Part shown: piece by piece, positions 7,201 to 59,785 of the stretch
How the letters are laid out: the number at the start of each line of letters is the position of its first letter
Numbering within the stretch: the stretch's first letter is position 1
Assembly: GCA_015143295.1 (NCBI GenBank)
Contig: CM026570.1
Coordinates: 26,977,250-27,041,249, forward strand
Source of the DNA: Tetracentron sinense
Lineage: Eukaryota; Streptophyta; Magnoliopsida; Trochodendrales; Trochodendraceae
Reading direction: 5' to 3'
Length of the DNA stretch: 64,000 nt
Translations under genes and position numbers: made by a program
Notes under the pieces: generated by a model
What the model was told of the DNA's origin: nothing
What the model saw: only the letters and a program-made list of their open reading frames with translations
The model's database searches: none

Positions 7201-10200
7201 TGTGAAACCTCTTCTGGCAACTTTATCATGGGGGATCATGGAGCTTCTCCTCTCTTCTTGTGTAGAAACTTCTAAAGATTCCTTAAGGTTAGTCTTTTCG
7301 ATAGTGTAGGTCTCTACAACTCTTATTTGAGATCTAAAAATTATCTGGACTAACCACTTTGTTTGTCTAGGAGTCTATTAGTGTCCTAGTTTTCTGAGAT
7401 TTGTCCCTATCCAAAAGTCATTGGGAAACAGGTTAGGGATCGTTTCTTTTAACTCTCTCTCTCTCTTTCCCTGACACTGTGAAACCTCTTTTGACAACTT
7501 TTATTTTCAGGAATCATGGAGCTCCTCCTCTCTTCTTGTGCCTCTAAAGATCCAGTAAGGTTAGTTTTTTTTTATAGTGTAGGTTCCGTAACTCTTATCG
7601 GAGATCTAAAATTATCAAGACTAACCACTTTGCTAGTTTAGGAGTTTGTTAGGGCCCAAGTTTTTCTGAGATTTGTCCCTTTCCAAGCGTCACGGGGAAA
7701 CATGCTAGGGAACATTTTTTCTTCAAGTAATGGTTTTTGCTTAGTTGGGATACACATCAACCGGCATTATTGGTGCTGTGGATTAATAGATAGCATTGAG
7801 AAAATGTTTTTTTGCAGTGGAGACCAACTCGTTTGATTTTCAGGAAACAAACAGGAATGAGGGGTTGTCGATTAAGATTATAGAGAGGGGGGAAGGTTTT
7901 TTCCAATATTCTATGGAGAAAGCGTATAAGTGGAAGGATAACACCATTGCTGAAGTCATTGCATCTGAACAAAATTATCTTGTTAGGAAATTTAGAAAGG
8001 AGCTTATGTGAAAAAAGGTTCAATGTCAGAGGGTCCTTGATGTTAATGTCCCTACAAGAATCAGGGAAGGGGAGAAAGATAATCATCCCAAAGGGCCCTG
8101 GGAGTATTTAATGGAAGGCGTTCCAAGCTGCTCTATTGTTCTTTAACTTAGAAAATCGGTCTAGAGGTAGTAACACCGTTGGACAAGAAGGTAGGAGGTG
8201 CTCGGCAGAGTGGAAATTTTCGAGGCTGGGTCGACATGAGAATGGTGAATTTAAGCCATCGGAAGGGATACTTTGTCATGTGGAAAAGGAGGAAGACTCA
8301 ACTAAGGTGGTGGTGGATTTTGATGCAGGTGCTTTTTGATACTAGGCTCATGTTGTGGTGTGCTCGGCCGGAGGCCCTGGAGTTGATGATGATTGGGAGA
8401 AGGTTGCTACAATTATTAAACAGGTGTTGCCAGAGATTAGAAAAATTCACTTGTTCCCTTTCAACATTCATAGAGCAATTTTCCATCCTAATTTTGGGTC
8501 CTAATTATCAAAGTTATGTAAGCAAAATTGTTTTTCATTAGGCAGTGGAAATTTTGTATCTTTCCATAGATGGTGGCCAACATTCAACGCCCTATTGTAC
8601 ACAAGGATCTTCAAGCAGCAATGGTTAGCTTTAAAAGGTATTCCCTTTTCATAAATGCAATCGGAAAATGAATCATCCCTATGGAAAGAAAGGTGGTGTA
8701 GTTGGGCAAAAAGAGGGTACTCTTAGTAGGACAGCTGTCCAACATAGCAGTTTATTTCAGGAAAGGACGGGGGTATCTCACGAATGTTGCATTGGTGAGG
8801 GTTTCGAGGTTGAGGGCTTGAGCCAGAACCATTTATTTTGAAAGTAAGCTTTGATGGCCAGCATGTTGAAGAGGGGGTGGGTTTGGGGTCTGCCAAGTCA
8901 ATGGGGCCTGAGCTGGGGTTGTATATTCTTGGGGAGTCCAGTTTTAAAAGGCCTATTAAGTCTCTGTTTCCTTGAAGTGAGATGAGTAAGGTTGATGTTG
9001 GCCTGGTGGGTAGAAACCCATTGTTGAGTTTAGGGGAACCAAGATTTCATTTATCAGTAGGGATGATTAGGGTCTTTCCTCTGGCCATAAACAGTTTGCT
9101 CAAAAAAATAGGGTGTCACTCAAACACCATTCCTCTCCCTTGTTTGTGTTGGTAGCTGGTGGCCAGGCGCCAATCCATTGGGCATCAATAATATAATGAT
9201 GGACTCCTCATTCTTCTCCTGCCAAATTAGCCGAGAGCGAGGATCCTTTTACCTCATGGCTTTTGATTCATAAATCTATGTTATAGGGTCTTGGGTTTTC
9301 AGTTTTCACTGTCTGTGCTTTCTTCAGGGATTCCAAAGAAGTTGGTTAGAAAGCTTGTTCCAGTCAGAGGGATAATCTGTGTAAAAAATCGGTAAATAAC
9401 CCCATTCAAAGCTCCAAATGGTTTGGCTCACCTTCTGAAGTCTCAAGCGCAGTGATCGTCTTAGTATCAGATTTGGAAGCAGGGTTTGCAGAGCTGGGGT
9501 CAAAGAGTATGTCGCCAGTTGAGCTCCCCAATCCCATAAGAATGATTCGGTTCAAGGTGATGTTTTGGTGGGAACCTCTTGTTCTTATGAAGTAAAACGT
9601 CAGCCTATCGGAGGTGAGATTCTCAATGGGGTGATCAAAGTTTCAAATGCTTCAGAAGTTTCCCCAAAGCTAGGGGAGTTTTATCTAATATTACCTAACT
9701 AGGGATCAGCTTCGTTAGAGGCATTGGCATGCTCAAATCTCTCTCTTATTAGTCGTATTCCTTCTGGTGGTTTGAATGTAAAATCAATACAATGTGATTT
9801 AAATCTTCTTCCTATGTGTCCAATAAGAGTAGTGCAGGGATACTCATCATCATCTTTCAGTTCTAGCAGTGTCCAATCTGAATCTAGAGTGGCAGGACTT
9901 TCACAGGGAAGATTTAGGTGCTCAGCAGAGAGACGAGCAAAACTCAAAAGAGGTTTCTGTAGTGGGGATTTCAAAGTCAGCATCTGTGGTCTGGCCGGTT
10001 TGTTTTGAGGAAGTGAAGTTGGGATCTAGTGATGCGGCCGAGTCTCACTCTTTAGGGGGAAAAGAAGGCTCTCCTAAGTACTTTCTGACAGCGATTCCCA
10101 AGGTTAATGCTGATAAGATGATCCTCTTTCTTCGGTCAGTTACACTTTCGACCTCGGTCCCTTCTATCCCTCCCCGTCATAGCAAAAACTCGAATGGAGT

Positions 10201-13200
10201 GGATAGTAGTGAGGAAGTTGGGTCCAATTATTACAGTGATCATTTTCTTTTATTGTTGTCCAAATCAATTGCGATGCCGCGGTCTGAATTGGATTCAGGT
10301 AGGAATATAGGTTTGGATGTGATTGAGCCTAGGGAGAATTTGACTGAAAATCTGTTTGGTATGGTTTTTGGGTCCCCTGTCCATTACATTCTATGTAGGC
10401 TGGGGGAGGAGGGTCTCTTGCCTAGTGTTGAAGGGGTGTATGGACAAGTTGAAGGTGTAGAGGAGGAAGATCTGGTAGAGGTTCCGAGTCCTTGTATTCA
10501 TAGTGATCTATCAGAATGGGTGTTGAAGAAGGTGGGTGAGTTCAGGGTTTTTTTTGGGGGTCTATCGTACGTAGGACATGAGGCGGAGGTCAGAGCCCTA
10601 TTCCAGAGTCTGGAAAATCAGAATGTAAATGCGGACCAAGGGGTAGATAAGAAGACCTTGTCCTTGGGAAATAGGAAATTGGCATGCAGAGTTGAAAAAA
10701 TTGTCAAATGGAATGAATTATGACGACAAGCTCAAGAAAGGAGAGAGGAGAAGTAGAAGGAAAATAAGGGGTGAATTAAGTGTAAATTAATGGATTTTTG
10801 AATCATTCCCTGGAACAAAGTTAAGAGACTTGCAGTTAAGGATTTGGAGCTAAGTAGAAGACCTTCACTTCTATGTTTGCAGGAAACCAAATTAGAATCT
10901 GTAGATGATGCAATTTGGTAGGAAGTCTGGGGGTGGTTCCTCAGGCTCAGATTGGAGGGTGGTACCTTCTTTAGGGGCACCGCGGGGGGGGGTGATCTTT
11001 GGTGGAGGTTATTGATTGTGAAAGAGGAGCTTTTTCACCCTATATGTTGTAGATCGGTTCTGGATGGTTTTGATTGGGTGTTCAAGGGGGTTTATAGTCC
11101 GGTGGATTCGTCGTGTTTTGGAAAATTTTGGCAGGAGTTAGATGTTAGATGATATGAGTGTGAGGTGGAATGCCCCATGGTTCATTGGAGGAGATTTAGT
11201 TGTGTAAAATTCACTAATGAATAATTGAGGAAGGGACTTATTTCTCATGAGATGAAGGAATTTGTGTGCTTTATTTCCCGTCATGGTCTCTTTAGATTCC
11301 CCCCCTGAAAGGTGCTGGATTCACATGGTTTAACTCTCAGGCATCCCCGATTATGTGCAAATTAGACCAATTTTTGATGTGTAATAGATGGGGAGAAAGG
11401 TTTCCCAAGGTCAATTTATTGGTCTTCCAATATTTATCTCTGATCATATTCCAATTTGTTTGGAGTTGGAAAGCACAAGGGGTAGACTAGACCTTTTAAG
11501 TTTGAAATCATGTGGTTTCAACATCCTGAGTTCATGTTTGTGGTGGAGGAAGTTTGGCAAGACTCCAATTTTTGGGGTCGCCCAAGTACCAATTTTGGTG
11601 TCAAATTGAAAGCCATGAAGATGAAACTCAAAAGTCGGAGCAAATAAGTGTTTGGGTGCAAAAGAAAACAAAATCCTTAGGGAGATTGAAAGGCTCGATT
11701 TGTGTGAGGGGGAGGATCGTCTATCAGTGGCTGATACTATGGTTAGAGGGTATCTGAGAAGGATTTTCATCATCTTCTGATTTGCCAAGAGATCAGTTGG
11801 AAGCAAAAATCGAGAATACAATGTCCTAGGGAAGGTGATAGGAATATTAGTTTCTTTCATAAAGTTGCTAATCACAGAAACAAAGTTAACTATATTCCTA
11901 GGCTAAAGGTGGATGAGGTTTGATTGGATAAGGAAGAGGATATTAGGGATTTAGTTGTGGCCTATTATAATCATTTGTTTCAGGAAAATGATTAGGCTGA
12001 AATTGGATGTGATGTCTTTCGCTAGTATTTCTGAGGAGCAAAGGGATAGCTTAGAGTGTATGTTTGAGGAAGATGAGATATGGACGGTGATTAAAAGTAT
12101 GGAGATAAAGCTCCAGGTCCTGATGGTTTTGCTATTGAGTTCTATAGGCGGTCTTGGCCTCTATATCTCAAATCTAATCTTATGAGAGTCTTTCAAGAGT
12201 TTCACTCCTCTGGTAAATTTGACAGGGTTTTGAATAGCACTTTTATCGCCCTCATTTCTAAAGTCCATTGTGCCCATGAACTAAAAGACTTCAGACCTAT
12301 TAGTTTACTAGGTAGTGTCTATAAGATTATGTCTATAGTCCTAGCGTCTAGGTTGAAGTTGGTTATGGGGTCCATTATCTCTGCTCCTCAAAGAGCTTTT
12401 GTGGGTGGAAGGCAGATTTTGGATATTTACACATAGAGGAAGCTACATGTAATTACAAAAATAGGAAGGCCACAGATTCTAAAAATGTTAATACTCTTGA
12501 AAGCAATTGCTTGGAATATGCATGATGAAGGGAGCTCCACGAAACTATGCCTCTTTTTAATTTTATAGATGGTCTTGGATGGGCATACAACGATTCCAAG
12601 ATCAAACTATGTCCTAATTGATTTTATGATTTGAAAGGCTATACTTACGTAGTCCTTCAAGTATAGAACCTCCTTGTCGATTCACACGAACCATCTTTAA
12701 GCTTTAAGGTTTTTGTCCAATTGAAAATAGTGGCCCTTCCGGTTGATTATTGTAGTAACTCGTCTTCTTTTCCTTCTCACTTTCCTTGATAATCAACTCT
12801 TGATCAAATTAGGAGAAGGATCAAATCCAAGCTGGAGGAGGAACACGTCCAAGCCAAGGGGAGGGGCTTGGACATGTTCCTCCTCCAGCTTGGATTTGAT
12901 GATCCTTCTCCTTAAAAAAAAACAGAATAGGGAGAGAGGGAAGGATATGAAGTAGTGTCACAATACCTATATGGAGATCCTAGAGTTGAGAGTCTCACCA
13001 ACCTAGGCATCCAAGGGATGGAGTCACACCACCAAAGAAAGGAATCACACCTTAGAAAGAACTTTTCCTTCACTTTCAAATCTGCGTCCTTTATAAATGC
13101 TAGGACTTGGGACCTAGTGAGCTTTTATAAATACTAAGATAGTGTTTGGATATACTTCTAAATTGATTTTTAGTGACTTTTGGCTCTTGAAGTGTCAAAA

Positions 13201-25529: not shown

Positions 25530-27841
25530 AAAAAAACTGCTAAAATAAGCAACTGTGTGTTAAATCAAAGAAGAGAAATGCTAGCCCTAGACACAGACTT
25601 CCACTCACTATGATAGCAACATGACATACCTTGTTACCATTAGAACAGGTTGAAATTATAACTTTTTCATTAAAAAAAATTATTTTCTTTACTTGTTGAA
25701 GGGATAGCAATCACAAGTGTTACACTCATAGTAAAAGTTTGGAGATCTACATTTGGAGTAGCACTCATAAAAAAAAAATGCCAAGAGCCCTCTTCAAACT
25801 CTAACCTGACTCGTGTGCACATTACTTTGCCTATCCACACAAGAATTTTTTAAAGGATGCTTCTACGAGTACACTAATATTTACTAAGTGGACATCAAAT
25901 ATATCACTTACTAATTGTACACCATTAAAATATGACAAATTCTATGAGCACACCAAGAGGTAAAAAATACTTATATATTTTTTAGTTTTACATAATTCTA
26001 AACTTAAAATTATAAAACATGATAATTCATTAGTCATTACTCTTTCGTGGACCCAAACCCAACTGAAGGTCCAATAAATTGGTATCAAAGGAATCAAAAC
26101 CAATTTCTTATATATTGCACCTCTACTTGTGTGAGTTAAAGAGATTGCAACAAAAGATCATAGGAAACTAAATATTGAAAATGATGTGGAGGAAAAACTT
26201 ACCGTAGTTCGTGTAATTGATCTAAAAGATCATACATAAAGATAATGAAAGAGAAACTCAAATTTGACAAAAACGTGAATATAGTAGGGATAGACAAAGA
26301 TTGAAGAACAATGAATGATTTAAGGTTATTAAGATGAGGAAAAGTTACAACACTTCGTGTTTCTACAACTCATCGGCTTACTAAAGGTAAGGTAAGAGGA
26401 GTTTTGTGGTTCATTCTTAGAAAGAGAACATTTTTAAAATTTTGGGGTATGAGTGCTCATAAACATGACAATCTTAAAAAATAAAGTCTTTTTTTAAAAG
26501 AAAAATGGTGTCCAGTCGTAAATATTGGTGTGTTCGTAAAAGTATCTTTTTTAAAACCCTTGGGGATTAATGCCACGAGTTGGGCTGAGGAACTCCTACG
26601 GCCGGGGATAGGGTTTTGGGGCTCCATTGCATTATCCTATTTGGAAAAAAAAAATATGTGGCTTCTTTTAAGACTTGAGCCCAGCCCTATCTGGTGCAGC
26701 GTTTTCGTAATGGAATCTAATCATAAATCTAGATCATTGATTTGAAGAGGATCCAATTCATTGAGCAATATAGGATTAAGTAAAGATTGGAGGGAGTGTC
26801 GGTACAAAGCTAACAAAAGCACATGAAAATCAAAGCAAGAAGTCCAACGCTAAGGATGCGAAAATAGACAAGTCTTGTGGGGCCGAGACACAATAAAAGC
26901 GAGTAAGACATAAGACCCATTCTGCATATTCTTGGGGGGCGGTGGGAGAATGAGAGAAGGGACCGCTAGCTACTTTCAAAATGTTGCTAAGTGCCAAGGC
27001 GTCCGTGAACGTGGTTTGGATCATGTGATCACTATGGGGTCCGTGACACCTAAGCCATGTTGCCTTTCGCCAGAGGGAACTCATCATCCCGCCAACTATA
27101 CCAATGTATAATACAAATATTAGTATCTCCGGCATTTTGTGCTTTTGTTATATATATATATATATACATATATCTCGAATCTGGCAAATGCGACACGCAT
27201 TTAAGCGGCACGTTTTTGGGCTCAAAAGAAAACTGATGATGAGTCTCTATTCCCTAAAATGTAGCAAAAAATAGCCTAATTGGAACTAACTAGAAAGGTG
27301 GAAGTTATAGCCTATGTTGGGTCACATTAAATTCTAGGGGTTAATTAGGGTTTATGATGAATATTTTCGACGTTTGACCGAATAACTTAAATATCTCTAA
27401 CTATTTTTTATCACATGTTAGGGAAATGAGACTTGCTATCTAGGTTAATTTGGTGATTTTAAAAGAGTGTTACATATAGTTCAAATGTGTGACGCATAGA
27501 GAGGCAAGGTGTGCTACTTATTCTATATAAGTAAGGTTAAAAAGTGATAAATTATAAAAAGAGGTCCTTTAAAACTTCTAGAATTTGATAATGGGATTCG
27601 TCCCAACAAGTGTTATAAGGTTGAGCCGTGCTAGCCCTACTCTCACGTAGTCCCTGCAAAAAAATCAACACATGTCAATATTCAGTATAAATTGGTAGGG
27701 GAACAGGTTGCGATGTAGGAAGTTTTTAGGCCCTCACAAATGCCCAACAAAATTGGTCTCTCTCGACTCTCTACTTTGAATAATTGTTCTTTTTTTTTAT
27801 AAAGTTAAAAATTGCTAAATTAAAACTACGCTAGAAAGCAA
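25530..27841. other. Intergenic sequence, no gene supported
   Basis: AT-rich sequence with scattered small frames. The largest is about 100 codons on the minus strand at 26830-27135 and shows no recognisable family, so it is probably chance. A TA microsatellite lies at about 27149-27165. Confidence 0.5.
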
Positions 27842-27850
27842 TTAAAAATA
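27842..27850. repeat. Left 9-bp target-site duplication of the MULE
   Basis: TTAAAAATA directly abuts the left terminal inverted repeat and is repeated exactly at 36849-36857. Nine bases is the diagnostic duplication length of Mutator-superfamily insertions. Confidence 0.9.
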
Positions 27851-27931
27851 GAGGAAAATACGGATTTGGGCCCCGTATTATGAAAAAACCCGTATATGGG
27901 CTCCGGGTTTGAAAACTTATTTTTGTAGGCT
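27851..27931 (+). repeat. Left terminal inverted repeat of the MULE
   Basis: About 80 bp starting GAGGAAAATACGG and ending near TTTTTGTAGGC. It matches the reverse complement of 36768-36848 except for about seven substitutions and one extra G. Transposase binding normally occurs in such termini. Confidence 0.9.
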
Positions 27932-28189
27932 CCCACGCGTGGGAGCCAAGTGCACGTGCTGCCCCTTCGCATTTTCTCCCCAAAATACCCCTGGCTTGCT
28001 TACCTAGCTTTCTTCCCAAGCTGAAGCTCGGTTACGAACCCTTGTCGTTGCTGTCTTCCCCAACTGAAGCCCTTGGTTATCCTGTGATCCGAAATCCTTC
28101 AAGGTGCAAATTTGAAACCTGCAAATCCTTCCCCAAAGTAAAACCCTTGGGTACCCAGTACATCCGGAACTCTACGGGCTTCGTAATAT

Positions 28190-28277
28190 CGTATTGAAGA
28201 AGAAGAAGAAGAAGCCAAAGAAGAAGAAGAAGACAAAGAAGAAGAAGAAGAACAACCCTGAATAAGAAGAACAACCT
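28190..28277 (+). promoter_or_regulatory. Probable 5'-UTR exon of the protease gene, GAA-rich
   Basis: A purine tract of repeated AAGAAGAAG ends in ACAACCT|GTAAGTTTT, a strong plant donor at 28277/28278. The matching acceptor TTTTGCAG ends at 29076, eight bases before the ATG. The transposase gene has the same plan on the other strand (AGAAGAAGAAAAAG tract then a GGTAAGTG donor at 36500/36499). The transcription start is not determined. Confidence 0.5.
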
Positions 28278-28339
28278 GTAAGTTTTAGCGGTTTTTAATA
28301 AAATTTCAAACCTAAAAATGGGCCCCACAGTTAACGACT

Positions 28340-29045
28340 TCATTTTCGATGCTTTCAAGTAACCATTTTCGATGGTTATGACAGTGGTTTTTCGGTATTA
28401 TTATTGATTTTTGCTCATTTTTCGTGATTTTCAATGGTGAAGTTAAAGTGCATTTTCGACCCTTTTGAGTTTATTTTCGGCAAAAATACATTGCAATTTC
28501 GATGGTTCTTACGACCATTTTCGGTGTTTTTTTACTCATTTTCGGTATTTTCAGTTATCAATGCTTATTTTCGGTATATTTATGTTTTTGCTTATTTTCG
28601 GTATTATTCAATTATGACATTGTTTTTTCGGTATTATTGTTGATGTTGAACCCAATTTCGGGATTTTCAATGGTTATGTTATAATGCATTTTCGATGGTT
28701 TTGTGCTTAATTTCGGTAAAAATACAGCAATTTCGATATTTCGGTATTTTTGTGTCCTGACAGAGTAAATTTTCGGTATTTTGCTTTCATGATAGTGCCT
28801 ATTTTCGATGTTTTTGTGTCCTGGCAGTGCCTATTTTCGGTGTTTTCTGCCTGGCAGTGCATATTTTCGGTATTTTTCTGTGATGACAGTGTCTATTTTC
28901 GGTATTTTTTTGTTATCCCAGTGCCTATTTTCAGTATTTTCCTGTTATCCTAGTGCCTATTTTCGTTATTTTCCTGTTATCCCAGTGCTTATTTTTGGTA
29001 TTTTTTGCTATGACTGGTAGTCAGTACTTTCGATGGTTATTGTTA
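28340..29045 (+). repeat. TTTTCGG motif array 1, in the protease 5'-UTR intron
   Basis: About 25 degenerate copies of ATTTTCGGTATTTT (variants TTTCGATGG, TTTCGGTGTT) are spaced irregularly, roughly 20-45 bases apart, throughout the presumed intron 28278-29076. Some units are joined into longer, similar units, for example GTGCCTATTTTCGGTATTTT near 28850-28960. No protein is encoded in a conserved way. Arrays 2 and 3 carry the same motif. Confidence 0.9.
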
Positions 29046-30203
29046 TGATAGTGCTTATTGTTTTTCAATTTTGCAGCGACAAGATGCCTCGTATAAAGAG
29101 AAAAGCCGGTAGGAAAAAGAAAAAGAGAAAAGATAAAAAAGATAAATATTTTCCTTCGATTAAATGCTCCCAAAGGATATGGTTTGACGAGATAAAACCA
29201 TTATTAGAGGCCAATCCAGAGAGAAAAAGAATTTGGATAGAGAGCTGCTTTGCCCACCTTTACAACATACCTAAAATACCACTGTGTGGCCAAGCAATCC
29301 ACCATTTTCTACAGAGGCGTAAATGAGGGTTACGCTTCGAAGTATGCGGGAAGAGTGTAGAGTTCACAGTATTGGACTTTACTCTGATCATGGGCCTTAA
29401 TGCCCAAGTGTCTAAGGCTCCGGTCCTTAAACATGAAGCACCACCAACCTCTCTCAAGTATCGAAAGTTTCAAAAGTTGGCGGTGATTAAAAAGGCAAGG
29501 CTTCTTGAGGAGTTGAAGGGATATGATGATCATATGGATGCGGTGAAGCTATCACTGGTCCTCTTTATTGAGTTGTTGCTCGTAGGCACCGGCACGCATG
29601 TGGGTGTTAACACAGGCCATTTGTGTCTAGTGGATGATTGAGAGGCCTTCAACAAATACCCATGGGGGACTTTGGGTTTTGAGTTGTGCAAGGTTGGCCT
29701 AGAAACTGCTCTTTATACGAAGAAGCAGTACAATATAAACGGATGTGCTCTTGCCTTCCAGGTAAACATATGACTACCTAAATTTTGTAAATTTTCCGTG
29801 TTAGCTAATTTGTGTTTACTTCTACTTGAACTAATAGTAAAATTTATGACTGATGTCAGATTTGGGCTTATGAGTGCATCCCAGCACTTGGGAGGCTGTG
29901 TTCTCGTAATGCATCCCTAGGTGCGATGACATTCCCACGGGTTCTGCGGTGGGCGAATACATCCTATCTCAGCTACAAGTCACTTGCAAATGCCATATTC
30001 AATTTAAGTAAAGTATGTAATTGGACTTGTTGTTTTACAATATTCAACTTGCAATATCCTTTGTTATTTTACAGATCATTTGTTATTTTATAACATATCC
30101 TTTGTTGTTTTACAGATCAAGCTGAACAATATAAAGCCTACTCCTGCAGAGAAGGAGCAGCAGGTTGTGAAGGATGTGTTCGCACGATTGAGTGCTGAGG
30201 GTG

Positions 30204-30345
30204 ATGATGATGAGGAGGGGGAGGAGGAGGATGATGATGATGGTGATGGTGATAGTGATGGTGGTGATGGGGGTGATGGGGGTGATGGTGGTGATAGTGA
30301 CGGTGGTGGTAGCGATGGGGGTGATGGTGATGATGTCAGTCCAGC
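30204..30345 (+). repeat. Asp/Gly/Glu-coding low-complexity tract
   Basis: GATGATGAT, GAGGAGGAG and GGTGATGG triplets code for an acidic then Asp-Gly-rich linker in exon 3 of the protease gene. It is followed by the basic SPAKKRR. The region probably is a flexible acidic spacer prone to triplet expansion. Confidence 0.85.
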
Positions 30346-30707
30346 CCCATCTCCGGCGAAGAAGAGAAGGTTCGAGCAGAGGTCAAAAACGGTACAAATA
30401 TTGATTGTGATTATTTTTTATGATTTTCGACATTTTGACATATAAATTGTCTAATTTTCGGGATTTTTACTTACTAGTTGTTTGATGTTCAATATTTTCA
30501 GGTTCATGAAATCAATTCCTCCGTTGAGCGGGCAATGGAGAGAGTTTTTGACCGTTATTTTGACCGAGTTGTTGATCGAGTTGTTGACCAAATTGTCGAC
30601 TGAGTTGTTGAGCGAGTATCCCCGCAAATAAAAAGCTTGTTTGAGCAATGGGCAGCGCAACAAAAAAAAGATGAAAAAACTTCTGGTGATGAAAAATCTT
30701 TCAGTGA

Positions 30708-30970
30708 TAAGATGTCTCCCATATTGAGTCCCGAAGCAGAGCCGACACAGGGACATTCTTTCGTTGATGAGAAGATGGATCCCATCTTCACTTCCGAAGC
30801 AGCGCCGACACAGGGACATTCTTTCGTTGATGAGAAGATGGATCCCATCTTCACTCCCGAAGCAGCGCCGACACAGGGACATTCTTTCGTTGATGAGAAG
30901 ATGGATCCCATCTTCACTCCCGAAGCAGCGCCGACACAGGGACATTCTTTCATTGATGAGAAGATGGATC
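30708..30970 (+). repeat. 63-bp in-frame tandem repeat in the protease gene
   Basis: Three near-identical 21-codon units (core GHSFVDEKMDPIF) start at 30751, 30814 and 30877, with further diverged units at each end (PILSPEAEPTQ before, GHSFIDEKMDPII after). The period is exactly 63 bp and keeps the reading frame. It lies between the acidic tract and the protease domain. Confidence 0.9.
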
Positions 30971-32389
30971 CCATCATTGAGTTGACTCCCGTAGATTCGA
31001 AGGGGGGTGCAGATTCGACGGGGGTGCAGATTCGAAGGGGGTTGAAGACCTTCTAGAGGTGTGTGTTTACATTCCTAAGACGTGTAATGAGAGTCTGTGA
31101 AATGAGTTTTCATCAAGCCGGAACTTATATTTGGCAATATATGCAGGTGTCAAAGAGATCGGTAGTGAAGTCTCAATATCTGCGATCCCCTTTCATTCAA
31201 ATGAAAGGAAGAAAAATGAGAATTGGAGCTGCTAACCCCAAAAATCCTTTATCAAAAGAGGAGTCGAAGCAACTGTGCGATTTCATAAAGTCGGGAGCAA
31301 CTTCAATTTTGATTGAAAAGGTGATGGTCACAGCGGATATTGTGGGAGGGATTTCTAGCTCAACTACGTGGATTGATTCAATGGTAAACCCAGTACTTTT
31401 ATTGATGAATCCAGTAGCCATTTTCGGTATTTCAGTTTCATTTTCGGTATTTCAGTGGTTTTAATGATGAATCCAGTAGTCATTTTCGGAATGTCAGTGG
31501 TTTTAATGATGGCCGTTATGTTTTAATTTCAATTTCAGTTTTAATGATGGCCGCTACGTAGATTCGAAGGGGGGCCAGATATGAAGGCCGCTATCATGGG
31601 GGTTCGAGGAGGGACCCCCATGTGGGAATGTGAAAGGATATACTTCCCTGTGAACCCCGCTAGTCACTGGCTATTGGTTGTGCTTGAACCCCCCACAAGG
31701 CGTATCCTCCTCTTCGACTCATTATTCCTACACCCGGCATTACAACATGAAGATCATATCTCAGCTATCACAGTGAGGATGCCTGCACTGTTTCACATGT
31801 GTGGTGACAACTCAGCCTTCATAGGTCAAAAATAGGAGGTCGTAGAAGTCAAAAATATACCAAAACAGAAGAATACGTAAGTCTTTCTAAAACATTTAAT
31901 CTTATATTTACCAATACACTAACATGACTCATCCTAAGCAACTGTAACTGTTTGTTTTGCATATTCAGTCGGGACTGTGGAGTATTCGTTATGAAATATA
32001 TTGACTTCTTATGCGCTGACTTACCCATTACGTTCACTCAGGTATTTGTACTCACATTGGTAAATATCATCAATCATTTGTAGCATACTGACTTTTTCTA
32101 ACTATTTTTGTAGGACGATATATCTTTAATGCGGAAGCGAATAGCTTTCGATGTTATGACGAGGTCAGTGAAGGCATGATGGGCTGTGATAACGTCCCAA
32201 TGTTGGATGCTGAGGTCCCATGATGAAGAGGAGGGAGAAGATAGGCCGGGGTGCAGTTTATTGATAGACTATTATGGATGGATTGTGATGGACTATTATG
32301 GATTGTTGTGATGATGTTGTAATGTTGTAATATTGACTTCTTATGGACTATTTGTGTACAGTCCTGTAATATTGTGTATTTAGAGATGA

Positions 32390-33010
32390 TTTTCGTCATT
32401 TATTACAATATCCAGTGCGGATTTTTGGTTTTTTCGTCATATTACAGATTATTTTCAGTTTTACAAGACTCCATTTCGGCATTTTACAGTGTCCCAGTAG
32501 CCATTTTCGGCATAACAGGGCTCAATTTCGGCATTTTTGCCATTTCCAGTAGCCATTTTCGGCTTAACATGGCTGATTTTCGGCATTTTACACTGTCTAG
32601 TAGCCATTTTCGGCATAACAGGAGCAATTTTCGGTATTACAGTCCAATTTTCGGTATTCTGCAGTACTGTATTTTCGGCATTTTTGCCATTTCCAGTAGC
32701 CATTTTCGCCATTTTTAGCCAATTTCGGTATTTTTCTGTAAAATTCGGCATTTTTGCCATTTTCAGTAGCCATTTTCGGCATTTTTAGCTAATTTCGGTA
32801 TTTTTCTATCAATTTCGGCATTTTTCTGTTGAATTCCAGCAGTCATTTTCAGCATTTTTGCCATTTCCAGTAGCCATTTTCGGCATTTTTCAGTTTTTTC
32901 CTGTCAATTTCGGCATTTTTCTGTTGCAATCCAGTAGCCATTTTCGCCATTTTCGGTATTTTCCTGTCACTTTCGGCATTTTATTGCCATTTTCTGTCTT
33001 TTTCCATCTT
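32390..33010 (+). repeat. TTTTCGG motif array 2, between the convergent gene 3' ends
   Basis: More than 20 copies of CATTTTCGGCATTTTTGCC-like units lie between the protease stop (32179) and the transposase stop (33113). The dominant form is TTTTCGGCATTT, against TTTTCGGTATTT in array 1. The block CCAGTAGCCATTTTCGGC recurs several times. Isolated copies also occur in protease introns near 30455-30475 and 31420-31490. Confidence 0.9.
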
Positions 33011-33112
33011 TTTTGAGATTCTATAATATTGGATAAATAATAAAGAACCTTGAAACCAACCATTCATTAAGCATTACATGTTTTTCATTACATTCAACAT
33101 TAGACACTACAC

Positions 33113-35701
33113 TCAACCACCATGGGGAACAAGATTATTACATGTTTGCCTATTGTGCCCAGTTTGTTTACATCTTCCACATCTTACAGTGGACCTTTCC
33201 TCACCCTGTGAGAGAATTCTATTCTTCTTCGGCTTTCCTGAACGTCTTCTTCCCACTGGTGGTTTAATCCTCTCCATCTCTACCATGATTTCAGGTGGGA
33301 GGTCCCATGATTTTTTGTCAAGCAGTGGATATATTGACTCTTGGTAGGTGGCTTGGTACGTTAGTGATGTGTAGAATTGCGAACAATAGTTGTATGGATC
33401 TACCCGATACTTTCTACATCCAGCCAAGGCATGTTTACAAGACAACCCTATTTTATAGAATTTCCCACAAGTGCAATTCCCATCCAGAAGCTTCACAGTA
33501 TCTCAATTGTTTTTCCCAACCACATAATACTGATACATAGCAATTCCATGAGAATCTAAATAACGTGCCTGTGATTGTCCCTTTTGTATTTGCTCTTCGG
33601 CCCATGTTGTTAGCCTGACATTCATTTGCATAGCACTGATTTTTCGGTTGTAGAACATATTTTGTACCTTCAGTCCCACATTCTCCAAAAGCATAGTGAC
33701 TGGATATTCTTTTGCTTCTTTCAGCAAACTATTCAAACTCTCGGTTATGTTCGTAGTCAGCACATTATACCTCTTCGCACTATAAAAGGCTCGGGCCTAT
33801 TTCTCTTTTGGTATTGCATCCAACCATTGCACAACGAGAGGGTTTACAGCTGCGAGTTCTGTCATTATCTCATGAAACTCGCTTTCTCTACATGTCTTCA
33901 CGGCTTTTCAGAAATACGGAAACAATTGCTTATCCTTGAATGTTGCATATATATTTTGGCTAATGTGGAATGCGCAGTAGCCATGAATTGCATGTGGGAA
34001 TACAACAAGGACTTGGCTTATCAAACTAACATGTCGATCTGTTACAATCACTAGATCATCTATGTGTCCAAATGCTCTTGATAATTGAGTTAAGAAAAAA
34101 TTGTAAGTAACATTATTCTCCGACTCCGCTATCCCAAGGGCAACTGGAAATATGTGATTGTCTCCGTCTAGAACTGTTGCGGCAATTAGTATTCCTTTGT
34201 ACTTTCCCTTTAAATGTGTCCCATCAATGGCTGCCACTTTCCGTAAAGTCGTCTGAAAACTTCGAATACACGGTCCAAGAGCCATAAAACATCTTTCAAA
34301 TGCCCCATTTTCAGGATCAGCCACTATTGCTGTTACTGTGCCCGGATTAGTCCTTTTAAGTTCATGAAAATAGGCAGGGAGTTCAGCATAAGAGTGGTCG
34401 TATGAATCTCTAACTATTTCAATGGCAATCTCCTTAGCTTTCCAAGCTTTCTTGTAACTCATTCTAACCCCATATTCTTTCCACACATCATGAATAATCT
34501 CTTTGGGCTTATACGAGACATTTGCCTCAATACGTCCCACAACCATGTCACTCACAACTAAACTGGTTGCTTGTCGATGATCGGTACCACCTAAGGGATA
34601 TCCACAAGAGTGATGTGAATTATAAGTCTTTATTTTGAAAACACAAACCTCATTCACTTTCGATGCACGCAACCTCCAGGTGCAATTATCTATAAGACAT
34701 CTAACTGTGTACTTTTGTTGATTTGAATCCATAACCTTGAATTGAAAATTGTTTCGCATCGCATATCTAGACAGTACATTTTGTAGACGTCTTTTGTCCT
34801 TAAATAATTTTCCAAGCGATATTTCACCAGCTTCCACTCCAGTTTCAAACTCTGATGCTTCCCAATTTACACAGTCATCTACATAGTCATTTAGTTGCAT
34901 CACATTTGCCAGTGATTGTACTGGAGCTTGTGGTGATGATGGAGCTTGTGCTGACGGTTCTGGATGAGCTTGTGGTGATGCTTCTGGATGAGCTTCTGTA
35001 TCTACTTGTCTTACTCGACGAAAAACAGACGCTGAGGAACTAGGAATATCAGCATGCGGGGTATGAGAGTGTATAGTCCTTGTGTCCCACTCTGCTGTTG
35101 CCTCCCTATGTAAAAAGTCTTCAAGCTTATCGCAGACACCGTATGTTGCTACATCTTCATCTTGATTAAAATCACTATAAAAATCATGTTCATCTTCATT
35201 AGTTGAGCTTGAGTCTATACTTTTTAAACATTCATCACCGTTATCATTTTCAGCCTCCTGAATATGAGTCCCCTTATAGAAAGGAATGACAGTCTCCTGA
35301 ATATGAGGATCAACAACCTCCTGAACACGCTGATATTCACAACTCGCATCATTCAAACCAAACTGTGGTTGTGGTACAGATTTCCTCACCTTCGATATAT
35401 ATAATGGCGGCAATTTATTTTCTACTTTCCTGACATGTGAAAGAAATGCCCACAACTCTTCATCGTCTGTAATATCACTGGGAGAGATTGGCGCTGGTGT
35501 AGGAATCAAACACCTCACTATAATCTCATACTCTTCCAGTCGAGTGTTAGTCAATTGATAAACTTTATCCAATAGTTTGTCATATGTCATTTTCGAAGAT
35601 AATTGCAACAACTTTGATTTTCCACCACTGTACACGTACCCTCGAACACGGTCGTCAATGTTCCACTCATCGTCATAACAACAAACTACTGATATCGGCA
35701 T
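33113..35701 (-). pseudogene. MuDR-type MULE transposase, in frame but with three nonsense codons
   Basis: A single frame of 863 codons runs from ATG 35701 to the stop at 33113. It shows a PB1-like N-terminal domain (about residues 1-95), an acidic/proline-rich linker, and a MuDR DNA-binding region with CLIDNCTW...HHSCG zinc-type ligands (about 330-380). Then come the MULE transposase domain (IDGTHLKGKYKG, Asp at about 493; VTDRHVSL, Asp at about 555; CAFH motif at about 576-579), a SWIM finger (CTCGKFYKIGLSCKH) and a CX2CX4HX4C zinc knuckle (CGRCKQTGHNRQTC). This order is standard for plant MULEs. Internal stops lie at 33908-33910 (TGA), 33797-33799 (TAG) and 33503-33505 (TGA). All sit where family members have Trp or Arg. 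No frameshift was seen. The start is the ATG just after a TTGCAG acceptor at 35705. Confidence 0.9.
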
Positions 35702-35744
35702 TATCTGCAATATCGGGAAAACACTCAATCCGTTAAAGTAATCT

Positions 35745-36480
35745 GAAAAATTTCGAAAATGAGCGCTGTAACCATTGAAAATGCACTGTAATAACCAAAA
35801 CCGCCAAAGATCACAAAATCATCGAAATAACACTGTCATATCAAAATTGCAATAACAGAAAACCCCCGAAAATGGGCATTGTATCCATCGAAAAGCTGTG
35901 TCAAAACAGAAAACCACCGAAAATGACCATCAAAGCATTGAAACAGAACTGTAATAACAGAAAACCACCGAAAAGGAGCATAAAATCATCGAAAATACGT
36001 TGTAATATCGAAAATGCAATAACAGAAAACCACCGAAAATGACCACAAAACAGCCGAAATAGCACTGTAATAACAGAAAACCACCGAAAATATGCATAAA
36101 ATCATCGAAAATGCACTGTTATACTGGAAAACCACTGAAAATGGGCATAAAATCATCGAAAAAGCACTGTTATACTGGAAAACCACCGAAAATGGGCATA
36201 AAATCATCGAAAAGCACTGTAAAAGAGAAAATGCAATAACATCAAACCCCCGAAAATGACCACAAAACCGCCGAAAATAAGCTCAAAACCACCGAAAATG
36301 AGAACTGTAATATTGAAAATGCACTGTAATCATAGATAACTACCGAAAATGAGCAAAAAAAATCAAACTTTATCACTACAACCATCGAAAATGAACTCTA
36401 ATAACAGAAAATGACGAAAATGAGCACATAACCCTAGCAAATACCGAATATGATCACTGTAACCATCGCAAAATGGATCA
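35745..36480 (-). repeat. TTTTCGG motif array 3, in the transposase 5'-UTR intron
   Basis: On the plus strand this appears as repeated ACCACCGAAAATGAGCATAA and ATCGAAAA units; on the minus strand, the transposase sense strand, it reads TTTTCGGTGGTTTTC. The number of copies is similar to array 1. Longer similar units of about 50-60 bp (ACTGTTATACTGGAAAACCA) recur at 36115-36215. The array fills the presumed intron from donor 36499 to acceptor 35705. Confidence 0.9.
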
Positions 36481-36559
36481 AAAACATATAAACACTTACC
36501 CTATGTTCTTGTTCTTCTACTTCTTTTTCTTCTTCTTCACAAGGGTTTAGCTCAGTTGC

Positions 36560-36690
36560 AATGAAGGAGAAAGCTTCAACGAAGGGGAAAACTTAAGTCT
36601 AGCTTGTTGCAACGAAGGGGAAAGCTTGAGTTTCGGATGAACGCTTCGTTGAAGGGGAAAGCTTGAGCTCAGTCGCACGGTGTTTAAGGG
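36560..36690 (-). repeat. Short repeats AACGAAGGGGAAAGCTT upstream of the transposase
   Basis: Four imperfect copies of AACGAAGGGGAAAGCTTGAG (plus-strand reading) lie between the transposase 5'-UTR donor and the right terminal repeat. They fall where the promoter or 5' leader would be. Confidence 0.75.
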
Positions 36691-36767
36691 TTCTCTAACA
36701 GGGATGGGGGGCATCTTGGAGAAATTTTTTTTGAGGAAACCACGTGCTCCACTAAAATCACTGTAGA

Positions 36768-36848
36768 AGCCTATAGAAATAAATATTTCAAACCGGAGCC
36801 CATATATGGGTTTTTTCATAATACGGGGCCCAAATCCGTATTTTCCTC
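36768..36848 (-). repeat. Right terminal inverted repeat of the MULE
   Basis: The plus-strand end CCGTATTTTCCTC is the reverse complement of the left end GAGGAAAATACGG. Similarity continues inward for about 80 bp. It is directly followed by the target duplication. Confidence 0.9.
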
Positions 36849-36857
36849 TTAAAAATA
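36849..36857. repeat. Right 9-bp target-site duplication of the MULE
   Basis: TTAAAAATA, identical to 27842-27850. Confidence 0.9.
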
Positions 36858-37266
36858 TCCTAGAAAGTATGTTGATTTGGTTATACTATTCTAAAAGACA
36901 ATAAATGCAATTATATCTATTCTAGAAAGAAAACAAAACTAAGCCTAGATATGACTAAGAAATGAGAGAGTTTAGAGCAGGGCCTAGTCTTGACACCCGT
37001 GAGTCACTTGTCCTTTTTTTTTTTGGTTAAGACACACCCAACTCACACACAGAGACCAAGTCTCAACCGAAGCCTTGGTCTCTACCGAAGCCACAACCAC
37101 GCACAACTCTCAAAATACAGTGAGGCATGGTACATTTTTCACCAGAACCTGGATTCGGAATGCTATAGCTCATGCTCATAGGTTTCGAGTCATGCTTAGA
37201 CTTAAATGTAGCCTCTAGGCTATTGGGTAGGTCATAGGTTCATTTGTTCACCACCATTGCCACGAG

Positions 37267-56290: not shown

Positions 56291-56685
56291 TTAATAAAAG
56301 AGGCTCATGCATGCGACAATAGACACCCAGACGAACAGCGATACAAGAGAGCCTTGGAATCCGGTCGGAATATGTCAGACTCCACGTTGGACTAATCTTG
56401 TGATTGTTTCACAGACTTTTCTTATGGCCATTTCTAAATGTAATAAAAAAAATTCTCCTTATATTTCTACTTCAATTCCAAAATTTTCTTTCCAATTCTA
56501 CAGTTCTGCCCATTTTCCAACTCTCTTTATCTCTCTATCTCTCTCTCTGGTGGCCACAGTTATTCTTAGCTATCTCCCAAAACAAGCCTTGTTGGCTCCA
56601 CTATTTCAAACTATCTTTTCTTTTCCCTGTTTAGTCATGGAAAATTAAGTTGCAGAGATAGACTGAGAGTGAGATAATAGAGAAG
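56291..56685 (+). promoter_or_regulatory. Promoter/5' leader region of the LRR receptor-like kinase
   Basis: A pyrimidine tract with CTCTCTATCTCTCTCTCTGG at about 56530-56549 precedes the start codon by 140 bases, as is common in plant leaders. Small frames here are not credible genes. The transcription start is not determined. Confidence 0.4.
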
Positions 56686-59600
56686 ATGGAGTTTTCTTTT
56701 CTCCTCCAACTGGTGCTGCTAACATGGGTTTTCATGGCTTCTTCCCGACTTTGCATGGGCAGCAGCGACGTCCCTCTTCAGCTCAACGACGATGTCTTGG
56801 GTCTTATAGTCTTCAAATCAGAACTTCATGACCCCTCCTCGTATCTCAATTCTTGGAGCGAAGATGATGACACCCCATGTTCTTGGAAATACATAAAATG
56901 TGATCCGGTCACTGGTCGGGTGTCCGACGTCTCACTTGACGGCTTGGGCTTATCGGGAAAGATCGGTAGGGGGCTCGAGAAGTTGGAAAGTTTGAAGGTA
57001 TTATCTCTATCGCATAACAATTTCAATGGTAGTATCAGTTCTGAGCTGCCGCTCATCGGTGGTCTTAGGACGCTAAATCTTAGTCATAACAGTCTTTCAG
57101 GGAGAATTCCAGTTGATCTTGGTAACATGACTTCAATCAGATTTCTAGACCTTTCAGAGAATTCACTCTCTGGACCCATCCCAGAAAATCTGTTTGAGAA
57201 TTTCTTCTCACTGCGATTCATTTCTTTGGCTTGTAATTTCCTTGAAGGACCAATTCCTAGCTCACTGTCTAGATGTGTCTCTCTGGGGGGTCTCAATCTG
57301 TCCAACAACCATCTCTCCGGAAACCCAGATTTTGCTAGTGGGATTTGGTCACTGATAAGGCTTAGGACCTTGGATCTTTCGCACAATGCGTTCTCAGGGC
57401 CTGTACCAGAAGGGATATTAGCTGTTCATAACTTGAAAGTGCTCCAATTACAGGGAAATCACTTCTCTGGACTGCTACCCGACGATTTGGGATTATGCCC
57501 GCACTTGAATCGTTTGGATTTCAGTGATAATATGTTCACCGGAACTCTTCCCGGTATGCTACAGATGCTTAATTTTGTGTCTTTTTTCAGTTTATCGAAG
57601 AACATGTTTACTGGTGATTTCCCTTGGTGGATTGGTAAAATGAGCAGTCTGGAATACTTGGACTTTTCAAGCAATGGGTTCACCGGAAACCTCCCGGTCT
57701 CGTTGGGTGATCTGAAATCACTGAATTATTTGAGTTTATCGGATAACAAAATGACGGGAGAGGTCCCTGTATCACTGGTTTCCTGTACAAGGCTGTCCCT
57801 AATCAGCTTGAGGGGAAACAGTTTCAATGGGAGCATACCCGGGGGTCTATTTGATTTGGGGTTGGAGGAAATCGATCTGTCATGGAATGGACTAAGTGGT
57901 TCAATCCCACCTGGTTCAAGCCGACTCTTCGAGTCTCTCCACAAATTGGATCTGTCAAGAAACAAGCTCACAGGAGGAATTCCTGCTGAAATGGGTCTTT
58001 TATCCAATTTGAGGTACTTGAATTTATCATGGAACAATCTCCAGTCCAGGTTTCCTCCGGAGCTCGGATATTTTCAGGAACTGACGGTGTTAGATCTCCG
58101 TAACAATGCCCTATACGGGTCAATCCCGGAGGATATATGCGATTCCAACTGTCTGGACATCCTACAATTGGACGGAAATTCCTTGACGGGCACAATTCCG
58201 GAAGAGATTGGGAACTGCTCATCTCTATACTTGCTGTAAGTCCACTGTGCAATGCTCTATGTTATACTTCCATTTGTGAAATACCAATTTTTCTCGTCTT
58301 CCTTGCAGGAGCTTATCGCACAACAGATTAATTGGTTTCATTCCTAAGGCCATTTCAAGACTAAAGAAACTCAAGATTCTGAACTTGGAGTTCAATGAAT
58401 TAAGCGGAGAAATACCGCAAGAGCTTGGCAGATTGGACAATCTTCTTGCAGTGAATATATCATACAACAGGCTCGTAGGTAGGCTTCCTTCCTCGGGTAT
58501 ATTTCAGAACCTAGATCAAAGTGCATTACAGGGAAATTTAGGGATATGTTCGCCCTTGTTGAAGGGACCGTGTAAGATGAATGTCCCAAAGCCATTAGTC
58601 CTCAACCCATATGCCTATAAAAACCCAATGAGTGGTGATAATATGGGATATAAATCCTCCAATTCTGCAAAACAACGGCACGGCAGATTCCTAAGTGTTT
58701 CTGCAATTGTTGCCATTTCTGCCGCTATTCTAATTGTTATTGGAGTTTTAGTGGTGAGCCTACTAAATGTTTCCACTCGGAGGAGGCTGGCCTTTGTGGA
58801 TACTGCCTTGGAAAGCATGTGTTCAAGCTCTTCAAGATCAGGGAGTCTTGCCACGGGGAAGCTGGTTCTGTTCGATTCAAGATCATCCCAAGATTGGATC
58901 CACAATCCCGAAGCTCTACTTAACAAGGCCTCTGAGATTGGAGGAGGAGTTTTTGGAACTGTATACAAGGCTTCCCTGGGAGGAGGAGGAAGGATAGTGG
59001 CTATTAAGAAGCTAGTAACACCCAACATAATCCAAAATCCGGAAGATTTTGATAGAGAAGTTCGAATCCTAGGAAAAGCGAGGCATCCGAATCTTATGAC
59101 AGTCAAAGGGTATTACTTGACTCCTCAATTGAAGCTTCTGATATCCGATTACACTCCGAACGGGAGCTTAAACTCCAAACTTCATGGAAGGTCCACATCC
59201 ACCCCATCTCTTTCTTGGGCGAACCGATTCAAGATTGCACTAGGAACAGCAAAGGGACTTGCCCACCTACACCAGTCTTTCCGTCCACCGATCATACACT
59301 ACAACCTAAAACCGAGCAACATCTTGCTTGACGAGAATTACAACCCGAAGATATCAGATTTTGGACTGGCAAGGCTTCTAACAAAGCTCGACAAGCATGT
59401 AATAAGTAGCAGATTTCAGAGTGCACTAGGCTATGTTGCACCAGAATTAGCATGCCAGAGCCTAAGGGTTAACGAGAAATGTGATATATATGGATTTGGG
59501 GTGATGATCCTGGAGCTTGTGACGGGGAGAAGGCCGGTGGAGTACGGAGAAGACGATGTAGTTATACTAAGTGAACATGTGAGGGTGTTACTTGAACAAG

Positions 59601-59785
59601 GGAATGTGTTGGACTGTGTGGATCCTAGCATGAGGGAGTATCCTGAGGATGAGGTCTTGCCAGTTCTGAAGCTGGGTCTGGTTTGTACGTCTCAAATACC
59701 GTCGAGCAGGCCATCCATGCCCGAAGTAGTGCAGATACTACAAGTTATTAAGACCCCAGTTCCACAGAGGATGGAAGTATTCTAA
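56686..59785 (+). CDS. LRR receptor-like kinase, probable pseudokinase (At3g28040-like), 1008 residues
   Basis: Two exons, 56686-58235 and 58309-59785, are joined by a 73-base GT-AG intron (TTGCT|GTAAGT ... TTGCAG|GAGCTT) that splits a Leu codon inside an LRR, as in many LRR-RLKs. A signal peptide (residues 1-25) is followed by an LRRNT cap with CSWKYIKC. Then come about twenty LRRs of the LSGxIP type to about residue 580, a transmembrane helix at about 645-670 followed by TRRR, and a kinase domain at about 720-1000. The glycine loop IGGGVFGTVY (727-736), Lys 750 in VAIKK and DFG (867-869) are present. The catalytic-loop HRD is HYN (847-849), so the proton-accepting Asp is replaced by Asn. 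The Arabidopsis homologue is annotated as probably inactive for this reason. It should act at the plasma membrane as a ligand-binding co-receptor or scaffold. The length is close to the family's. Start: the first ATG of the open frame, directly at the signal peptide. Confidence 0.93.

Follow-up and report, generated by a model that had tools for sequence, protein, structure and literature searches.

What might arrays of one short motif do in the noncoding parts of a transposable element? The question is raised by a stretch of 64,000 nucleotides from Tetracentron sinense (contig CM026570.1, positions 26,977,250 to 27,041,249), hereafter called the window, which harbours a Mutator-like element (MULE) at 27851-36848 with a 9-bp target-site duplication (TSD) and two genes facing each other. 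One gene codes for a protein with DUF1985 and Ulp1 protease domains and the other for the transposase. Copies of ATTTTCGGYATTT fill the introns of the 5' untranslated regions (5'-UTRs) of both genes and the gap between the gene ends. We consider it highly probable that these arrays serve to bind the DUF1985-Ulp1 protein that the element itself encodes, which would be a VANC-like (KIU-type) anti-silencing factor that removes silencing. Binding and demethylation by this protein are proposed by analogy with the VANC proteins of Arabidopsis.

Motif arrays in the noncoding parts of the element

The arrays are real: allowing at most one mismatch, 35 matches to ATTTTCGGYATTT were found in the window, against 0.35 expected (sd 0.56) and a maximum of 2 in 100 shuffles. 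An unsupervised comparison of 8-mers ranked ATTTTCGG first, with 32 occurrences in five noncoding stretches and 0 in the flanks, both strands included. In the 1.16-Gb host genome, exact ATTTTCGGYATTT occurs 4768 times vs 125 for the reversed control. Counts of the TTTCG core (24, 21 and 21 in arrays 1 to 3) agree with the estimate of about two dozen copies each in the initial annotation of this DNA, which had described the three arrays. All cores of arrays 1 and 2 are on the plus strand, with none on the minus strand, and array 3 has 21 on the minus strand and 1 on the plus strand. The motif thus points along the sense strand of the genes in the window, as first described, but this is not a general rule, since the motifs of other families are palindromic or found on both strands. 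The dominance of the T-form in array 1 (GGT 12, GGC 1) and of the C-form in array 2 (GGC 12, GGT 5) also holds; array 3 has GGT 7, GGC 2 and GA 9. Such dense arrays of a short motif in noncoding parts are a feature of VANC-type systems. Elsewhere TTTCG is rare: exons 2-4 of the DUF1985-Ulp1 gene have 0 copies in gene sense (1 on the opposite strand), 30502-31383 has 3, 31591-32290 has 1, and the transposase coding part has 4 on the plus strand and 1 on the minus strand.

Splice signals fit the placement of arrays 1 and 3 in 5'-UTR introns. The intron of the DUF1985-Ulp1 gene runs from CCT/GTAAGT at 28278 to TTTTGCAG at 29076, ahead of the ATG at 29084, and that of the transposase gene from GGG/GTAAGTG near 36498 to TTGCAG/ATAATG, ahead of the ATG at 35701 (slashes mark splice sites). 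These intron calls are based on splice signals, reading frames and conservation. GAA-like runs in gene sense were observed in both 5'-UTRs just ahead of the 5' introns, at 28196-28252 and 36506-36538. The three sites named initially, both 5'-UTR introns and the gene gap, are correct but incomplete, as motifs are also found in introns at 30392-30501 (2 copies) and 31384 (3 copies). A search of 27800-36900 against Rfam returned 0 matches.

The plus-strand gene has Pfam matches to DUF1985 (1.4e-5) and Peptidase_C48/Ulp1 (6.5e-8); the latter scores 33.1 bits vs a cut-off of 20.7, giving a C48/Ulp1 domain in a DUF1985 gene as in KIU genes. Solved C48 proteases align weakly (E 0.013) to the Ulp1 region over an HW...FDS stretch, and a DCG stretch is read in the Ulp1 coding frame; we take these two stretches to be the catalytic residues. 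No match was found between DUF1985 and solved structures. A 63-bp tandem repeat (21 residues, 4.3 copies) lies inside the DUF1985-Ulp1 coding region at 30705-30975. The 21-residue repeat words number 4 in the window and 1, 2, 2, 1 and 3 in the host relatives L009, L010, L011, L012 and L013, respectively. The minus-strand gene has MULE (5.1e-19) and DBD_Tnp_Mut (7.8e-12) domains, and a SWIM match (0.0009) just below its cut-off. In the window copy, each of the two genes has three in-frame stops before the end of the stretch read. The element ends align as near-identical terminal inverted repeats (TIRs) of ~65 bp, and their 20-bp end word is found within the window only at the two ends. A MULE transposase, TIRs and a 9-bp TSD are all present, as in MULEs with TIRs.

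Table 1. Features of the Tetracentron sinense element, in window coordinates
Feature	Position	Strand	Basis
9-bp TSD TTAAAAATA	left 27842..27850, right 36849-36857		identical flanks; siblings have their own 9-bp duplications
Left TIR	27851..27915	+	alignment of both ends; matches 36785-36848 reversed
Array 1, 24 TTTCG-cored motifs, 5'-UTR intron of DUF1985-Ulp1 gene	28278..29076	+	core count
DUF1985-Ulp1 (VANC/KIU-like) gene, several exons	29084..32041	+	Pfam domains, exon frames
Intron, 2 motif copies at a distance of 31 bp	30392..30501	+	core count, exon frames
Putative remnant of a fourth array, 3 copies (31384-31545), protease intron	31384..31590	+	comparison with relatives
Array 2, 21 motifs between gene ends, mostly C-form	32389..32990	+	core count
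MULE transposase gene	33113..35701	-	Pfam domains
Array 3, 21 motifs, 5'-UTR intron of transposase gene	35707..36498	-	core count
Right TIR	36785..36848	-	end alignment; 20-bp end word

Outside the element, two adjacent open frames at 56662-59782 code for a leucine-rich repeat receptor kinase, which is probably a gene of the host interrupted by an intron or a frame break. A 296-residue open frame with no Pfam match is located at 9833-10900, followed by what by eye resembles the start of an endonuclease of a long interspersed nuclear element.

Conservation and helical spacing of the arrays

At least 72 copies of the family besides that of the window, with 95-96% transposase identity, are present in the host (best 73 of 1510 candidates). 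In 40 of these 72, the 902-residue transposase frame is open, with no stop within the match, and the family is likely to be young. The full-length relatives L009, L010, L011 and L013, whose 9-bp TSDs are perfect except for one mismatch in L011, all hold arrays 1, 2 and 3. They also hold a fourth array, and the three arrays first described are therefore not the full set. It comprises 14-17 copies over ~0.9 kb, at steps of ~20 and 42 bp, in the intron found at 31384 in the window, and by comparison the window copy appears to have lost most of it. Two more distant copies are partial: L012 (~87%) has arrays 2 and 3 and the fourth, with its left part unaligned and the TIR word not found, and L014 (86%) aligns over the left third only and has array 1 there.

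In the relatives examined, the arrays keep their places. Among 34 copies (30 loci, window included, plus L010-L013), array 3 has 17-22 motif copies in all 34 examined at the transposase end, and array 2 has 17-22 in 33 of the 34 tested, the anchor not being found in L030. A TIR search of the host, in which the best 40 of 371 candidates were scored, returned 40 ends identical to the 65 bp of the window. Twelve of the TIR copies, chosen by eye as having no listed transposase match nearby and all with undiverged ends, were covered over their first 1.4 kb, and each has array 1, with 20-26 TTTCG cores. Elements with these termini but without the arrays were thus not seen among these 12; related elements lacking the arrays, with the same termini and genes, were one of the observations that the initial annotation had named as overturning its proposal. 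No relatives were found in viral contigs by transposase or TIR word, and a transposase search of a genome-contig collection gave 15 pattern-matching stretches, none of them a relative.

The spacing of the motifs follows the DNA helix. Distances between neighbouring cores in the window cluster near 20-21, 30-32, 42 and 51 bp. When 37 periods between 7 and 16 bp were scanned, the best for the 71 window sites (238 pairs) was 10.5 bp, with a mean cosine of 0.41 that none of 2000 jittered sets (sites moved up to 5 bp) reached. Since tandem duplication copies spacings, we also kept one unit per spacer class. The 66 units then collapsed into 34 classes, and the mean cosine was 0.50, against a jitter mean of -0.02 (sd 0.12), with 0 of 20000 sets as high. 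At 10.5 bp, arrays 1, 2 and 3 give 0.33, 0.52 and 0.37, respectively. Of the 19 array/copy cases across L009-L013, 18 have their best period at 10.25-10.75 bp and one, array 3 of L013, at 7.25 bp. Such phasing is what adjacent DNA-bound proteins would need, and it would not be expected of RNA signals. Sasaki is said to have described helical periodicity of VANC motif copies in 2022.

Sequence variation among the copies, computed leaving out L012, is lower in the motifs than around them. In array 3 (0.0061 vs 0.0103) and array 2 (0.0113 vs 0.0202), the non-CpG columns of the motif have ~0.6 times the variation of other non-CpG columns. The three arrays have a CpG observed/expected ratio of 0.99-1.28, the flanks one of 0.53 and the transposase gene one of 0.60, and 66 of the 79 CpGs in the three arrays of the window are within the TTTCG core. 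CpGs of the motif are not cleanly protected; their variation exceeds that of its non-CpG columns (0.0144 vs 0.0061 in array 3, 0.0143 vs 0.0113 in array 2), and the coding part gives 0.0118 for CpG vs 0.0035.

A second family with a different motif in the same places

The best 150 of 558 DUF1985 candidates in the host were scored; the family is absent from 14 control genomes. Seven other DUF1985 loci were taken, by eye, from different score groups. Four of them have arrays, with three further motifs, and related families therefore carry different motifs. Locus L045, which L052 adjoins, is a complete element of a second, apparently multi-copy, DUF1985-Ulp1 MULE family that we called F1. It is flanked by the 9-bp repeat TTCTATTTT, has TIRs of ~0.5 kb at 89% and shares 49% identity in the transposase and 51% in DUF1985 with the window family. 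Its motif is a 14-bp perfect palindrome, TCTCGAATTCGAGA, accompanied by half-sites at steps of mostly 20 bp, which suggests a dimeric reader. The palindrome occurs 949 times genome-wide vs 2 for the control. The 51 F1 sites fall into four groups (14, 6, 17 and 14). The first precedes the DUF1985 ATG, the second occupies a gap between exons, the third lies between the ends of the two genes and the fourth is upstream of the transposase ATG, and these are the same four intervals as in the window family. The 8 other intervals, element ends included, contain 0 half-sites. Donor-like CCTGTAAG and acceptor-like TTGCAG are found upstream of the F1 DUF1985 ATG, and the acceptor-like TTGCAG/ATAATG before the transposase ATG is identical to that of the window element. 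That F1 places a motif of its own in these four intervals and nowhere in the other eight is the strongest support for a VANC-like role of the arrays.

Loci L047 and L049 have TTTCGATAT on both strands, and L046 has AGATCGGTAT in 131-bp units downstream of the gene. Motifs hardly cross between families. Counts of the window, F1, L047 and L046 types are 49/0/2/0 in the window element, 4/46/0/0 in L045, 2/0/0/11 in L046, 1/0/18/0 in L047, 2/0/11/0 in L049 and 42/0/5/0 in L012. Pfam confirmed Ulp1 in the window, L045 and L046 and, for the fourth motif type, in L047. Phasing was computed for F1, L047 and L049. It is strong in F1, with a best period of 10.0 bp that 0 of 1000 jittered sets matched, and a helical periodicity like that attributed to VANC-type systems is found in the window family and in F1.

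Possible readers of the arrays

Could a protein other than the DUF1985-Ulp1 product read the motifs? In the CACTA superfamily, TnpA of maize Spm/En recognizes a subterminal motif; we know of no DUF1985 or Ulp1 in this protein. By comparison with it, the arrays could be sites for the transposase, whose binding was among the roles proposed in the initial annotation, and serve in synapsis or the regulation of transposition. The transposases, at 49% identity between the two families, have diverged along with the motifs and would fit their co-diversification too, and Spm TnpA is itself an element-encoded activator of its element that is linked to demethylation (PMC10398659). However, each end region (TIR plus 5'-UTR) has a lone TTTCGG, the F1 ends have no half-site, and arrays also occupy the middle of the element, namely the gap between the genes and an internal intron. 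Recognition by the transposase is therefore unlikely.

It is a little harder still to see the arrays as enhancers of the expression or splicing of both genes through host factors, such as intron-mediated enhancement or U-rich intron signals. Two of them are in first, 5'-UTR introns, their sense strand is T-rich (0.44-0.47 T), and TTCGAT, a match to the six leading letters of the enhancement element TTNGATYTG, is present in 7 copies in array 1 and 8 in array 3. Nevertheless, neither the whole TTNGATYTG nor CGATT occurs in the three arrays, array 2 is intergenic, and helical phasing favours DNA over RNA. Motifs that differ between families of one host are also not expected of host-factor sites. 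Of the three roles put forward initially, that in splicing or expression of both genes comes nearest, for its expression part.

The third of these roles, silencing through pairing of the inverted arrays 1 and 3 as double-stranded RNA in a read-through transcript, is very improbable. The predicted duplex of the two arrays is stable (-419 kcal/mol vs -240, sd 8, in 30 shuffles), 17 pairs of 21-nt windows match with at most 2 mismatches, and RNA-directed DNA methylation targets the noncoding parts of VANDALs (PMC10398659). Yet the longest perfect stretch between the arrays, 14 nt, is inside the shuffled range (mean 12.5, max 15), arrays 2 and 4 are oriented like array 1, and pairing leaves both the phasing and the family-specific motifs unexplained. 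Such pairing may be a cost and not a function. Least probable of all are functionless slippage repeats in unconstrained DNA: the arrays do contain true tandem duplications and the F1 units are exactly 20 bp, but the phase is kept across 34 unlike spacer classes, the same four intervals hold a different motif in F1, and both the low variation of non-CpG motif columns in arrays 2 and 3 and the high CpG ratio of the arrays relative to the flanks argue otherwise.

Several observations weigh against binding by a VANC-like protein. The DUF1985 score of the window copy, 25.5 bits, is below the curated cut-off of 35.1, although that of its sibling L009 (52.1 bits) is above it. The motif is more conserved than the spacers in 9 of 10 partly overlapping pairwise comparisons, not in all. 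With the TTTCG core, array 3 taken alone has its top period at 7.25 bp (0.50), with only 0.42 at 10.25 and 0.37 at 10.5 bp; with TTTTCG as the core it peaks at 10.25 bp (0.50). The F1 peak is at 10.0 bp, with just 0.16 at 10.5 bp, and its exact 20-bp units could stem from plain tandem duplication. Phasing is weak in L047, whose value is reached by 13 of 1000 jittered sets, and lacking in L049 (938 of 1000). Loci L048, L050 and L051 showed no clear array in the 6.3-6.4 kb covered. Lastly, VANDALs have degenerate TIRs (PMC10398659), unlike the window family and F1, which we therefore do not file as VANDALs.

Locus L050, whose DUF1985 gene scores 63.9 bits, showed no recognisable C48 frame over the 6.3 kb covered, and it may be of another kind.

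Known systems nevertheless offer a close parallel. The initial annotation knew of no described function for such arrays, but DUF1985-bearing VANC proteins, which have variable tandem peptide repeats, bind them in Arabidopsis VANDAL MULEs (Hosaka 2017, PMC5735166). As described there, VANC21 induces loss of methylation and binds YAGTATTAY arrays that are found in VANDAL21 introns and in its intergenic and terminal noncoding DNA; these arrays are dense, in one orientation and of C- and T-types. VANC6, with another motif (AGTTGTCC/AGTTGTAC), also causes methylation loss (PMC5735166). The window element is likewise a MULE with a DUF1985 protein containing variable tandem peptide repeats, dense one-orientation motifs with T/C variants in introns and between genes, and a related family with another motif. 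It differs by its clear TIRs, by the two genes seen, with VANB not recognised, and by the CpG core of ATTTTCGGYATTT, which YAGTATTAY and AGTTGTCC do not have. Ulp1-bearing VANC genes are called KIU and recognise motifs in the VANDALs that carry them (PMC13317346). Kaonashi elements (KI-MULEs) share with ours a Ulp1-bearing gene of the VANC type that faces that of the transposase; they are described as non-TIR MULEs (PMC13317346, PMC2528002). ULP1-bearing TIR-MULEs of melon and grapevine also have ULP1 beside the transposase gene, and no motif arrays are described in the passages covered, the term 'tandem repeat' not occurring in the paper (PMC2528002). A search of literature text for four motif strings matched 25 papers, and none of the 10 listed is on transposons by title.

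The match to VANC systems goes beyond resemblance, because in a second family of this genome the same four places hold a different motif. Given this and the VANC-like anatomy, we take the arrays to be platforms for the element's own anti-silencing protein. The motif is repeated across the gap and the noncoding stretches of the two genes, exons and TIRs have few copies of it, and the copies tend to one helix face. Several protein molecules would then bind side by side, with density and phasing, and not one short word, giving specificity. As for VANC21 and VANC6, the bound protein would remove or block DNA methylation, allowing both genes to be expressed and the element to move. As a pattern, protein and motif change together, and each family would read its own arrays.

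All four motif types found in the host DUF1985 families are CpG-cored (TTTCGG, TCTCGAATTCGAGA, TTTCGATAT and AGATCGGTAT). Together with the concentration of CpGs in the motif core of the window, this raises the tentative idea that binding depends on methylation of the very cytosines that the protein protects. Each element would then have a self-reinforcing on/off switch, with several mutually blind versions in one genome, outside the non-TIR VANDAL lineage. The motif-free ends of F1 have high CpG ratios too (1.24 and 1.12), and the ratio does not therefore stem from the motifs alone. As motif CpGs vary more than other motif positions, we regard methylation-gated binding as possible but rather doubtful.

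The initial interpretation is partly supported overall, and a known kind of system accounts well for the finding. What gives the finding value is that it concerns TIR-MULEs, with CpG-cored motifs, phasing on the helix and more than one motif type accompanying DUF1985 genes within a single genome. If our reading is true, sequence-specific anti-silencing of the VANC type would be extended to MULEs that have TIRs, in another plant whose 1.16-Gb genome has four motif types next to DUF1985 genes. These natural, probably orthogonal protein/motif pairs could reveal the residues that read the motif, the role of helical spacing and gating by CpG methylation, and they would be material for directed epigenome editing.

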